Below, piece after piece: positions 24,316 through 40,013 of a stretch of 64,000 nucleotides of DNA (positions within the stretch are counted from its first letter, which is position 1; the number at the start of each line of letters is the position of its first letter). Below the pieces are notes generated by a model, which saw only the letters and a list, made by a program, of their open reading frames with translations, was not told the DNA's origin and did not search any database. The DNA is taken from contig WYBU01000124.1 in the NCBI GenBank assembly GCA_011525745.1, positions 1 through 64,000 on the forward strand, read 5' to 3'. A program made the position numbers and the translations under genes. This stretch comes from Planctomycetaceae bacterium (GTDB lineage: Bacteria > Planctomycetota > Phycisphaerae > UBA1845 > UTPLA1).

Positions 24316-24789
24316 TTACCACCAATCGTCATACCAGTCGTCCCAGTAGTAGTCGTCGCCGAAGAAGTAGCTCTCGTCGTAATAGACGCCCTCATCCCAG
24401 AACCCGCCGTCGTCGTAGTACCCGAAATCGTCGTAGTAGCCGTAGTCGTCGTAGTAGCCATAGTCGTCGTAGTAGTACTCTTCGTCATAGTAGAAGGCGT
24501 CATACCAGCCGGGATCGAAAAACCAGAAGCCCAGGTCGAAGAACGCGGGGTCCTCGTAGTAATAACCGTAGTCTTCATAGATGACGACCGGTTCGGCGTA
24601 ATACGCCGGCGCTGAGAAGAAATCGAAGAAGAACGAACCGCGGTCATCGTCGTCGTCGTCAAAATGGACCGCGTCACAGCCGCCCGCGGCCAGCAGCGGA
24701 ATGCACAGAATCGTCGCGAAGCGCGTGACGACGGATCGAACGGGACGGCCGAACTCGGTTTTGGGGGCCGGCATCAGGGGGGCTGACAT
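24316..24789 (-). CDS. Tyr/Asp-rich lipoprotein of unknown function
   Basis: The 157-aa protein starts at ATG 24789 with GGAGAGG upstream on the coding strand. The hydrophobic stretch FATILCIPLLAAGGC ends in a lipobox with Cys38, so the mature protein should be lipid anchored. From there on the sequence is almost only Tyr, Asp, Phe, Glu, Gly and Trp: about 27 Tyr in some 117 residues, an Asp6 run, and repeats of YYDDYG. There is no Lys and one Arg, so it is highly acidic. No family is recognised. Possible roles are metal binding, tyrosine cross-linking or an adhesive coat; none is demonstrated. The opposite-strand Val-rich frame is its shadow. Confidence 0.75.
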   Translation of the reverse strand: MSAPLMPAPKTEFGRPVRSVVTRFATILCIPLLAAGGCDAVHFDDDDDDRGSFFFDFFSAPAYYAEPVVIYEDYGYYYEDPAFFDLGFWFFDPGWYDAFYYDEEYYYDDYGYYDDYGYYDDFGYYDDGGFWDEGVYYDESYFFGDDYYWDDWYDDWW

Positions 24790-25023
24790 GATTTCCTCTC
24801 CCGCAGGGCCGCACGTTTTCCGCGGCGACCCGCCAGGGACATAGACACGTTCCCCGGCCCGACGTTGGCCGGCGCCCTGCTTGTCAATGTCAACGGCGGG
24901 CCATAATCTCGGTCGCCGCGATGATATTGGCTGCCCGCCCGCGCGACGCGGCGCGGCTCGGACCGGGCGCGACGGCGCCGATGGCCGCGACCGCCCGAAA
25001 ACGCCGTTCGCTCAAGGAATCCG

Positions 25024-28800: not shown

Positions 28801-28910
28801 GATCCGAACCGCGACCGTGAGGGAGCGGCGCATTCCCCGATCCGAACCGCGACCGTGAGGGAGCGGCGCATTCCCTGATCCGAACCGCGACCGTGAGGGA
28901 GCGGCGAGCT
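28801..28910. repeat. Three tandem family C repeats, period 38 bp
   Basis: GATCCGAACCGCGACCGTGA begins at 28801, 28839 and 28877, each followed by GGGAGCGGCG. The first two units are linked by CATTCCCC or CATTCCCT. Single or broken copies are at about 9047-9102, 17419-17573 and 62525-62577. No coding function is likely. Confidence 0.9.
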
Positions 28911-29153: not shown

Positions 29154-30785
29154 ATGACGTTGCTGCTGGCCAGCATCGTGGGGCCTTCGTTTGATGACGC
29201 GCTGCGCGCAGTGCGCCGCGCGATCCAGAACGGCGCCGACGGCGTCGAGCTGCGCCTCGACGCCATGGCCGACGTCACCGACGAACAGGTCATGATGATG
29301 CTGGCCGAGTTGCCCGACGATCGCCACGCGATGCTGACGATTCGCTCGCGCGAGGAGGGCGGTCACTACGACGGCCTCGACGCCGACCGCGTCAGTCGCC
29401 TGATCGCGCTGGGTCCGCTGTTCGACTCGATCGACGTCGAAGCGGCGCTGTGGAGACGCTCCGCCAACATCCGGCAGAAGATCATGCTGGCCGTCGAACG
29501 GTCCGCACACGAGCCGCCGCCGCTAGAGCAGACCGACGTCGCCCTCGCGGAACCGCACGCCGAAATGGCGGAAGTTTCGCCCGCAGCGCCGGTCCCCGGG
29601 CGAAGACTGCTGATTCTCTCGCACCACGACACACGCGGCCGGCCGCCGCGCCTCAGCGCCGAGTTGCTCGACCTGGTTCGCGAGCCGCGCTGCGACATCG
29701 TCAAGCTGGCGTGGGCCGCGCGCAGCCTGCGCGAGTGCTTCGAGGCGTTCGAGCTGATGCGCGATCGGCACAAGCCGCTCGTGGCGATCTGCATGGGCGA
29801 CGACGGGCTGATCTCGCGGCTGCTGGCGCGCAAGTACGGCGCGTGGGCCGCGTTTGCCGCCGTCGATGCCGCGGCCGCGGCCGCGCCGGGCCAGCCCACG
29901 ATCAACGATCTGAAGCGACGTTACCGCTGGGACGCCATCGGCCCGCGTACGGAGGTATACGGCGTCATCGGCGATCCGATCGGCCACTCGCTCAGCCCCG
30001 TCGTGTTCAACGCTGCGTTCGATGCGGCGGGCATCGACGCGGTGTACGTGCCGCTGCGCGTGCGGCCGGGATACGAGTCATTCAAGGCGTTGATGGTCGA
30101 GGCGCTGGCGCGGCCGTGGTTCGATTTGCGCGGCGTGAGCGTCACGTCGCCGCACAAGGAACACGCGCTGCGCTTCGTGACCGAGCAGGGCGGACGCGTC
30201 GATGAACTGGCGCGGCGAATCGGGGCGGCAAACACCCTGAGCATCGACGCAAGCGGCGGATCGTCGGCGAGCAACACCGACTCCGCCGCGGTGATGGCGG
30301 CGATCCGCGCCGGGACGGACCTGGCGCCGGCGGAATGGAGCGGCGCGCCGGTCGCGATCCTCGGCGCCGGCGGCGCGGCGCGGGCGGCGGCAGTAGCCCT
30401 GCGCGAGATCGGCGCCGACGTGACCGTGTACGGTCGGTCGCGCGCGCGTGCCGATGTGCTGGCGGCGGACCTGGGATGCCGGGCGGCGAGTTGGGACGAG
30501 CGCCACACGCTCGCGGCGCGCATCCTGCTCAACTGCACGCCGATCGGCCAGTCGCCGGACGAAAATGCAACGCCGATCGACGCATCGGCGCTGCGCGGCG
30601 ACATGATCGTTTTCGACGCGGTCTATCGCCCGCGACAAACCCGACTGATCGTCGAAGCGCGGGCGCGCGGATGCCGCGTAATCGAGGGGCTTGAGATGTT
30701 CCTGCACCAGGCCGCCGCGCAGTGGCGCGCGTGGACCGGGCGCGATGCGCCGCTGTCCGTCATGCGATCAGCCGCGACGCCATGA
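29154..30785 (+). CDS. aroDE: Bifunctional 3-dehydroquinate dehydratase / shikimate dehydrogenase
   Basis: The 543-aa fusion starts at ATG 29154. Residues 1 to about 240 are a type I dehydroquinase: VELRLDAM near the start, SHHD in the middle, and the Schiff-base Lys in CDIVKLAW. Residues about 255-543 are shikimate dehydrogenase: YGVIGDPIGHSLSPVVFNAA, the substrate-contact motif SVTSPHKEHAL, GAANTL, and the NADPH-binding loop ILGAGGAARAA. The two enzymes carry out consecutive shikimate-pathway steps, dehydroquinate to dehydroshikimate to shikimate, in the cytoplasm. The same order is known in plants and in some planctomycetes and chlamydiae. No other aro gene is adjacent. Confidence 0.96.
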   Translation: MTLLLASIVGPSFDDALRAVRRAIQNGADGVELRLDAMADVTDEQVMMMLAELPDDRHAMLTIRSREEGGHYDGLDADRVSRLIALGPLFDSIDVEAALWRRSANIRQKIMLAVERSAHEPPPLEQTDVALAEPHAEMAEVSPAAPVPGRRLLILSHHDTRGRPPRLSAELLDLVREPRCDIVKLAWAARSLRECFEAFELMRDRHKPLVAICMGDDGLISRLLARKYGAWAAFAAVDAAAAAAPGQPTINDLKRRYRWDAIGPRTEVYGVIGDPIGHSLSPVVFNAAFDAAGIDAVYVPLRVRPGYESFKALMVEALARPWFDLRGVSVTSPHKEHALRFVTEQGGRVDELARRIGAANTLSIDASGGSSASNTDSAAVMAAIRAGTDLAPAEWSGAPVAILGAGGAARAAAVALREIGADVTVYGRSRARADVLAADLGCRAASWDERHTLAARILLNCTPIGQSPDENATPIDASALRGDMIVFDAVYRPRQTRLIVEARARGCRVIEGLEMFLHQAAAQWRAWTGRDAPLSVMRSAATP

Positions 30786-37622: not shown

Positions 37623-40013
37623 ATGATGTCTTCATCTACGGCCTTTCGATCATTGGTGAATCGAGGTGTACGAGGCGCGGCCGGGGTGGCTGCGGCGAGT
37701 TGGTTGATGATCGTGTTGCCCGCAGGCGGCACGGAGCGTGTGCCCGAGGGATTGTCCGCCTCCGACTGGTCGAGCATTCGGGCGGCGTATGAGGCGAATC
37801 GTCACGCGGCATTTCCGGTTGAGGGCGGCTGGCAGACCCGCAATCCCGGCCAGCAGTGGCGGACACGGTTTGACGGACGCGGGTTCGAGACGACGCCGAA
37901 CGGCGGAGGATGGTCGTGGGGGCTGGCACTGTTGAATTACGGGCGTGAGTGCGCGGAGGGCGATCCGAGCCGCAAAAGCCTGCCCGCCGCGGCGGGTGAG
38001 GGAGCGGGTTCGCTGCCGGTGTGTGTGCGAGCCGACGGCGGTCGCATCGAATACGAATGGGATGACACGCTGACCGAGTGGTACGTCAACGACCAACGTG
38101 GGCTGGAACACGGCTACACCGTGCATCGGCGGCCGGATTCATATCATACCCGAGAAGGCGGGAATCCAGCTTGGGAACGCCCACTCCAATTCACGCTCGC
38201 CGTGCGCGGAGGACTGCGTCCGCAGGTGAGCGGCGACGGGCGGAGCGTGACGTTCGTCAGCAACGCCGGCGCGGCGGTGGTGATCTACAACAGCCTGACC
38301 GTGATCGACGCCGCCGGCGCACCGGTGCCCGGCTGGTTCGAACTCGGCGCCGTCAATCCGAAATCCCAAATCCCAAATCCGCGATTCCTCCGTCTCGTGG
38401 TCGACGACTCAAACGCGACCTACCCCGTCACGATCGACCCCATCGCCCAGCAGGCCTACCTCAAGGCGTCGAACACCGGGGCGCTCGACGAGTTCGGCTG
38501 GTCCGTGGCGGTCAGCGGCGACACGGTGTTGGTCGGGGCACCTGCGGAAGACAGCAGCGCCACCGGCGTCAACGGCAATCAGGCTGACAACAGCGCCACA
38601 GATTCCGGCGCGGTCTACGTCTTCGTCCGCTCCGGCGGCGCCTGGAGCCAGCAGGCCTACCTCAAAGCCTCGAACACCGGGACAAACGACCGGTTCGGCT
38701 ACTCCGTGGCCGTCAGCGGCGACACGGCGGTGATCGGAGCGTTCCTGGAAGACAGCAGCGCCACCGGTGTCGGTGGCAACCAGGCCAATAACGGCGCGTC
38801 CAATTCCGGCGCGGCCTACGTCTTCGTCCGCGCAGGCGGAGTCTGGAGCCAGCAGGCCTACCTCAAAGCCTCGAATACTGGGGCGGGCGATAACTTCGGC
38901 GTCTCCGTTTCGGTCAGCGACGACACGGCGGTGGTCGCGGCGTACTTGGAGGCCAGCAGCGCCACCGGCGTCAATGGCAACCAGACCGACAACAGCGCCC
39001 CCGAGTCCGGCGCTGCCTACGTCTTCATCCGCTCGGCCGGGGTCTGGAGCCAGCAGGCTTACCTCAAGGCCTCGAACACGGGGGCGGGTGACTGGTTCGG
39101 CGTATCCGTTGCGGTCAGCGGCGACACGGTGGTAGTCGCGGCACCCGCTGAAGACAGCAGCGCCACCGGCGTCAATGGCAACCAGATCGACAACAGCGCC
39201 CCCGAGTCCGGTGCCGTCTACGTGTTCATCCGCTCGGCCGGGGTCTGGAACCAGCAGGCCTACCTCAAGGCCTCAAACACCGCGGCGAGCGACTGGTTCG
39301 GCGTATCCGTTGCGGTCAGCGGCGACACGGTGGTAGTCGCGGCACCCTTGGAAGACAGCAGCGCCACCGGCGTCAATGGCAACCAGACCGACAACAGCGC
39401 CATCGATTCCGGCGCGGCCTACGTCTTCGTCCGCTCCGGCGGCGCCTGGAGCCAGCAGGCCTACCTCAAGGCCTCGAACACCGGGCTTGACGACTGGTTC
39501 GGTCGCTCCATTGCGGTCAGCGGCGACACGGCGGTGGTCGGAGCGTATCAGGAAGACAGCAGCACCACTGACGTCAACGGCAATCAGGCTGACAACAGCG
39601 CCACATATTCCGGCGCGGCCTACGTCTTCGTCCGCTCCGGCGGTGCCTGGAGCCAGCAGGCCTACCTCAAGGCCTCGAACACCGGTTCGGGAGACCTGTT
39701 CGGCTACTCCGTTGCGGTCAGCGGCGACACGGCGGTGGTCGGGGCATGGGGGGAAGACAGCAACGCCACTGGCGTAAACGGCAACCAAGCCGACAACAAC
39801 GCCGACGCTGCAGGCGCGGCGTACGTCTTCAACGGTCTGGGACCACCGGACGCGGACGGCGACGGCATCCCCGACGCCATCGACGTCTGCCCGAACAACA
39901 CACCGGGCCTTCCCGTTGACTGCGACGGCCGCCCGCTGCGCGACTGCAACGGCGATTGCCTGGTTGACGGCGCGGATATTCAATGCATCGTGGTTGAACT
40001 CCTTGGGCAGTAA
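37623..40013 (+). CDS. Secreted FG-GAP repeat protein with seven 67-aa repeats and a dockerin tail
   Basis: The ATG at 37623 follows GGAGAGAGGA and gives about 796 aa. A signal peptide spans about 1-40. Residues about 276-738 are seven units starting QQAYLKASNTG and containing FG-S-VAVSGDT and AYVFVRSG, an FG-GAP/integrin-alpha-like blade pattern, so a beta-propeller is expected. A thrombospondin-3-like calcium segment (DADGDGIPDAIDVCPNN) and a dockerin-type end (DCNGDCLVDGADIQC) close the protein. It is likely a surface or adhesion protein. Two oddities lie before the repeats: translated repeat-type stretches SYHTREGGNPAWERP and NPKSQIPNPRF. Confidence 0.92.
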   Translation: MMSSSTAFRSLVNRGVRGAAGVAAASWLMIVLPAGGTERVPEGLSASDWSSIRAAYEANRHAAFPVEGGWQTRNPGQQWRTRFDGRGFETTPNGGGWSWGLALLNYGRECAEGDPSRKSLPAAAGEGAGSLPVCVRADGGRIEYEWDDTLTEWYVNDQRGLEHGYTVHRRPDSYHTREGGNPAWERPLQFTLAVRGGLRPQVSGDGRSVTFVSNAGAAVVIYNSLTVIDAAGAPVPGWFELGAVNPKSQIPNPRFLRLVVDDSNATYPVTIDPIAQQAYLKASNTGALDEFGWSVAVSGDTVLVGAPAEDSSATGVNGNQADNSATDSGAVYVFVRSGGAWSQQAYLKASNTGTNDRFGYSVAVSGDTAVIGAFLEDSSATGVGGNQANNGASNSGAAYVFVRAGGVWSQQAYLKASNTGAGDNFGVSVSVSDDTAVVAAYLEASSATGVNGNQTDNSAPESGAAYVFIRSAGVWSQQAYLKASNTGAGDWFGVSVAVSGDTVVVAAPAEDSSATGVNGNQIDNSAPESGAVYVFIRSAGVWNQQAYLKASNTAASDWFGVSVAVSGDTVVVAAPLEDSSATGVNGNQTDNSAIDSGAAYVFVRSGGAWSQQAYLKASNTGLDDWFGRSIAVSGDTAVVGAYQEDSSTTDVNGNQADNSATYSGAAYVFVRSGGAWSQQAYLKASNTGSGDLFGYSVAVSGDTAVVGAWGEDSNATGVNGNQADNNADAAGAAYVFNGLGPPDADGDGIPDAIDVCPNNTPGLPVDCDGRPLRDCNGDCLVDGADIQCIVVELLGQ
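38448..39836 (+). repeat. Seven in-frame 201-bp repeats inside the FG-GAP gene
   Basis: Units start at 38448, 38649, 38850, 39051, 39252, 39453 and 39654, each with CAGCAGGC(C/T)TACCTCAA. The period is exactly 201 bp. Identity at DNA level is high, including synonymous positions, so recombination or slippage could change copy number. The last unit is shortened where it meets the C-terminal tail. Confidence 0.95.

Follow-up and report, generated by a model that had tools for sequence, protein, structure and literature searches.

Tyrosine/aspartate-rich lipoproteins in one order of planctomycete bacteria and a candidate ECF sigma regulon of envelope-stress type

The ECF sigma factors RpoE (sigma-E) of E. 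coli, held by RseA, and SigW of Bacillus are each encoded beside a membrane anti-sigma factor and are autoregulated, and their regulons combine an AAC -35 and a GTC-type -10 with many exported targets. The planctomycete system described here appears to be laid out likewise in all these respects, and we know of no counterpart in the RpoE or SigW regulons of the tyrosine/aspartate-rich (Y/D) lipoprotein that is its subject. Proteins of related appearance occur elsewhere. Tyr-rich proteins become cross-linked in apicomplexan oocyst walls, and their precursors are, like the protein described here, Tyr-rich, of low complexity and exported, but they are eukaryotic and not lipid-anchored. YTV-domain proteins are cell-wall (envelope) proteins of planctomycetes, larger and cysteine-rich; the present protein belongs to the same setting but differs in having no Pfam match. 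The flavobacterial (GYYDD)n Tat-signal lipoproteins, from loci in Aequorivita, Formosa and Psychroserpens, are also small, exported and lipoprotein-like with tandem YYDD units, but they differ in their signal peptide (RRDFIKKSG, SCSSDD), in the fusion of some of them to another domain and in belonging to another phylum, and their design is probably of independent, convergent origin. The flavobacterial loci that we collected are L058, L064, L070, L075, L076, L089, L094, L103, L132, L136 and L166, of which L058 and L064 carry the further domain.

The gene that led to this study lies in a 64,000-nucleotide stretch of planctomycete DNA, which we call the window. Its features are as follows.

24316..24789, minus strand: Tyr/Asp-rich lipoprotein gene, 157 amino acids (basis: open reading frame, Shine-Dalgarno site, codon use, and relatives that are built alike and are under purifying selection)
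Residues 1-37 of that protein: signal peptide, with lipobox LLAAGG-C38; the mature chain is residues 38-157
24795..24802, minus strand: Shine-Dalgarno site GGGAGAGG, before the ATG at 24789
24409..24475, minus strand: 18-bp tandem repeat coding for YYDDYG units, 3.7 copies (Tandem Repeats Finder)
24643..24660, minus strand: Asp6 tract, residues 44-49, a little past the putative lipid-anchor Cys (direct reading)
24842..24868, minus strand: ECF-sigma-type promoter CCAACG-N14-GTGTCTA, with the -35 AAC at 24866-24864 and the -10 TGTCTA at 24847-24842

The open reading frame at 24316-24789 is a genuine gene. Its codon use is like that of neighbouring genes (log-score 0.26, GC3 0.79), whereas the other two minus-strand frames have distinctly negative scores. 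A single frame of the opposite strand scores about as high, but it contains 22 stops. The mature chain from Cys38 (120 amino acids) holds 27 Tyr (22.5%), 30 Asp (25%), 16 Phe and 7 Trp, with one Arg, no Lys and a net charge of -36. A sequence-only reading of this stretch had already given about 27 Tyr, no Lys and one Arg, and had noted the Asp6 and the YYDDYG repeats, which are the tract and the 18-bp array listed above; these counts hold. The order of the residues is non-random, with 11 motifs of two to three hydrophobic residues followed by two acidic ones in the mature protein against 2.4 in shuffled sequences (0 of 5000 shuffles reached 11). The window contains other tandem arrays, of 27-bp units at 462-805, of 38-bp units at 28801-28906 (98% identical) and of a 201-bp unit at 38447-39830 (about 6.9 copies, which probably encode repeated domains of a protein), as well as a single gene at 29154-30785 with type I 3-dehydroquinase and shikimate dehydrogenase domains (an aroDE-type fusion).

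The lipobox Cys proposed in that reading can be accepted; position -3 holds Ala in place of Leu, and the n-region is long. The 117 residues counted after the Cys are in fact 120. The protein has the signal peptide, lipobox and invariant Cys of a bacterial lipoprotein, and the Cys is kept at the same place across the aligned set, so that the product is probably exported and lipid-anchored on Cys38. AlphaFold2 predicts disorder (mean pLDDT 41.6, a poor model from a shallow five-sequence alignment), and the chain is probably intrinsically disordered. BLAST, Pfam, NCBIfam and PDB searches returned no relative of the window protein; no Pfam family matched at E<=10, the YTV domain included, and tblastn and BLAST in relatives, genome contigs and plasmids, together with phmmer against PDB, gave no usable match. 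Such searches fail because the protein is of low complexity.

Relatives were instead found through composition-based DNA patterns (YDDYGYYD; YY[DE][DE]xYY[DE][DE]), profiles built from the first finds, and synteny. The search among relatives that the sequence-only reading had proposed yielded some 50 small lipoproteins of this kind, as a rule a single one in each genome; those relatives that carry a name are Phycisphaerae/Planctomycetota metagenome-assembled genomes (MAGs; for example JAKLKO010000015.1). They share one build, a signal peptide, a Cys (often GCD) and then Y/D/E repeats whose number differs among relatives, and a Shine-Dalgarno-like site precedes nearly every member. Asp stands at +2 (the Lol +2 rule) in 28 of 53 members, a figure for which the background lipoprotein set was too small a comparison to judge. 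Lipoboxes in the f8 subgroup are non-canonical, many having Ser, Thr, Ala or Asn rather than Gly before the Cys, which makes lipidation uncertain there. The composition had been called rare. Among 368 predicted genes in 31 family neighbourhoods, those highest in Tyr plus Asp are almost all family members.

The distribution of these proteins is narrow. Of the 114 genomes sampled from the order, the window's own among them, 51 carry the Y/D signature (part of the 51 read at protein level and a few without a match in a simple ORF scan), against 0 of 56 from the other orders of the class (Fisher 1e-11), the genomes compared being mostly MAGs. In the rest of the phylum it appears in 6 of 148 genomes; one of these gave no readable ORF, and the readable ones hold larger proteins of another build and no small lipoprotein. 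The family libraries and literature searched contain no description of the family, in agreement with the earlier statement that its function is undescribed; the Y/D lipoproteins form a family that had not been described before and that belongs to a single planctomycete order.

Disruption of the reading frame in relatives had been named beforehand as the outcome that would speak against the gene. In the relatives the frame is intact: indels in the repeats leave it unbroken, and dN/dS is 0.11-0.23 in five close pairs of family members (none a very close relative of the window gene itself), a range that shows purifying selection among the relatives. The window gene stands alone, and gene neighbourhoods vary among members; neighbours are conserved only within related genera (an FHA-like/STPK/ECF module in f1, proB in f5, polA in f8) and therefore point to no operon-based function. 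The sequence-only reading had likened the composition to cross-linkable or metal-chelating structural coats, but the neighbourhoods examined show neither a cross-linking enzyme nor a metal gene or coat operon adjoining the Y/D gene. Two f8 genomes (G112 and G040; L283 1111-1662 and L285 1495-2097) have a second small lipoprotein-like gene after the Y/D gene, with an N-terminus similar to that of the Y/D gene and an Asp/Ile/Val-rich, Tyr-poor tail, and the window's own genome encodes at L293 (G000:C36:10301-13378) 1483-1731 a small protein with an f8-like TATCDP N-terminus and a hydrophobic, Tyr-poor body.

Whether all members descend from one ancestor is a separate matter. As a control, the family profile (A1) also matches the flavobacterial (GYYDD)n lipoproteins, with E down to about 1e-11, equal to some members; profile similarity across families is thus largely compositional, a single common ancestor is not proven, and A1 was dropped as proof of homology across families. 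Common descent is clear only within subgroups, namely the f1 WKKK group, the f5 pair and f8 with its CDPxxG...R motif, while across families the case for kinship rests on shared architecture, lineage restriction and the promoter.

The chief new finding, which the sequence-only reading could not have made, is a shared promoter. Alignment of the upstream regions of the family revealed a fixed-spacing element, CYAAC[CG]-N14-GTGTC[AT]A. The 64 kb of the window contain one exact copy of it, 77 bp ahead of the ATG of the Y/D gene. AAC-N16-TGTC is present upstream of 31 of the 53 members, against an expectation of about one (background 0.019 per 260 bp) and against 0-2 regions for spacers of 13-15 and 17-19; the binomial value of 1e-39 overstates the case because the members are related. 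One-step variants precede another seven of the 53, and 15, mostly f4, have no recognisable motif. Counted over 61 genomes, the full motif occurs 90 times and a reversed control about 49 times, and a search with the spacer one base longer (N15), a partial control, gave counts near background. A few N15 sites precede LPP20-like, Arg-rich or DUF3300 secreted genes, which suggests that spacing 17 is used as well.

In at least 13 genomes this element also stands before a gene for an RpoE/SigW-like ECF sigma factor, usually at a distance of 32 bp, and for 12 of 13 such sigma genes the next gene in line encodes a one-TM anti-sigma-like protein. The window's own genome has a single clear orthologue of the sigma gene (G000:C147; E 4e-52, next 6e-20), and about 30 nt before its start codon lies CCAACC-N14-GGGTCTA, which departs from the element by one base (GGTC for TGTC). 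Among NCBIfam models this sigma matches SigW (124.9 bits, cut-off 209) and RpoE (121.3, cut-off 236) best, scoring below both equivalog cut-offs. The adjoining anti-sigma gene encodes one hydrophobic segment and matches an NCBIfam antisigma model at E 2.8e-9, below cut-off. The AAC/GTC layout and the autoregulation are in keeping with ECF promoters at large (PMC8103513), and both marks of an ECF regulon are found here, a target that shares the promoter element of the sigma gene and a sigma gene that adjoins a membrane anti-sigma gene. We infer from this arrangement that the Y/D gene is directly regulated by this ECF sigma, and the shared promoter points to a regulon of envelope-stress type. 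The -10 of the sigma gene itself ends about 5 nt before the start codon (L355, L335, L338, L343 and others; in the window's own genome L419, near 1441-1471), and the autoregulated transcript would therefore be leaderless or nearly so.

Candidate regulon genes were taken from the motif sites, some of which are chance occurrences. In the 61 genomes, 13 of the sites lead into ECF sigma genes and about 15 into genes for Y/D lipoproteins, some of them new and divergent (L374, L380, L382, L390, L391) and uncovered by the motif. Other sites lie before genes for secreted proteins (LPP20-like, Arg/Tyr-rich and others), for a trypsin-like protease and for a fatty acid desaturase. The window's own genome has only two full-motif sites, one before the Y/D gene and one before the gene of an Arg-rich secreted protein of 225 amino acids with 36 Arg and a net charge of +16 (L354, G000:C52:42200-44400, complement of 1255-1929), which has no Pfam or NCBIfam match.

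Put most cautiously, the Y/D protein is an exported and probably lipid-anchored and disordered product of an envelope-type ECF regulon. Going further, we give about an even chance to its being a disordered acidic-aromatic lipoprotein that is induced by envelope stress and tethered to the membrane, where it may act as a charged brush, condensing with cations or with the co-regulated Arg-rich protein. The RpoE/SigW-like sigma factor, held by its membrane anti-sigma factor, would be freed by an envelope signal and would switch on the Y/D gene, and the induced protein would cover a membrane face with a dense brush, polyanionic and tyrosine-sticky. There its repeated (aromatic/hydrophobic)2-3-(Asp/Glu)2 units would most likely bind cations or else basic partner proteins, of which the Arg-rich secreted protein is an example, and condensation of the brush with what it binds might protect or patch the envelope. 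The brush and its condensation are hypothetical, and we hold this part of the proposal only tentatively.

Of the alternatives, the one that fares best is a store of metals or cations, in which Asp/Glu pairs and Tyr phenolates would bind Ca, Mg, Fe or rare earths and so buffer the periplasm or the surface. The net charge, the Asp6 tract and the paired carboxylates, the acidic pairs being a constant element of the repeats, would suit such a store, but no metal transport or metal-regulator neighbours were noticed, the promoter is of ECF type rather than a recognised metal box, and the protein has no defined binding loop; we regard it as unlikely. Rather more doubtful is a structural coat whose Tyr would be oxidised to dityrosine, cross-linking the protein into an insoluble envelope layer. 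The Tyr content and its placing in repeats, the stress-type promoter and the precedent of the oocyst walls speak for a coat, but no oxidase gene was seen adjoining the Y/D gene, and in f8 relatives Tyr runs alternate with, and are partly swapped for, runs of Ile/Val/Phe between the same acidic pairs (EIIIFDD, EVVVVDD, EIIIIEDD). Over the repeats Tyr makes up 69-77% of the hydrophobic residues, the remainder being Ile, Val, Phe or Trp. The replacement favours a hydrophobic-acidic pattern, weakening both the dityrosine and the phenolate-metal readings, and makes phenol chemistry unlikely as a general requirement of the family.

A signal or decoy within the stress circuit, its aromatic C-terminus (WW, CF, DCY, FF) mimicking the tails of misfolded outer-membrane proteins and thereby tuning the protease that cuts the anti-sigma factor, seems improbable to us. 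The E. coli protease DegS is activated by C-terminal peptides of unfolded outer-membrane proteins (PMC8103513), and 32 of 53 family members end in Trp, Phe or Tyr, but one f1 subgroup has a basic WKKK-type tail instead. That the composition merely reflects slippage of the 18-bp repeat, in a protein without selected function, would fit the tandem array and its variable repeat number but is very hard to reconcile with the low dN/dS of the five pairs, the conserved promoter, the occurrence across an order and the conserved non-repeat N-terminal motif of f8.

Our preferred reading, an induced and membrane-tethered acidic-aromatic lipoprotein, can be extended to an order-wide ECF-controlled system in which the polyanionic Tyr/Asp brush would condense with a secreted, co-induced Arg-rich polycation and so seal or stiffen the damaged envelope, an on-demand extracellular coacervate; in this full form it is a speculation that we think has a slim chance of being right. 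The envelope biology of this phylum is poorly known, and an odd low-complexity reading frame, invisible to BLAST and Pfam, now stands for a family to which a promoter, a candidate regulator and a regulon open to test can be assigned. Promoter conservation supplied links beyond the reach of sequence similarity, naming a sigma/anti-sigma pair and co-regulated partners, and the promoter match is the first testable clue to the role of the Y/D lipoprotein. If the acidic and basic low-complexity proteins act jointly, they would constitute an inducible envelope-repair condensate.
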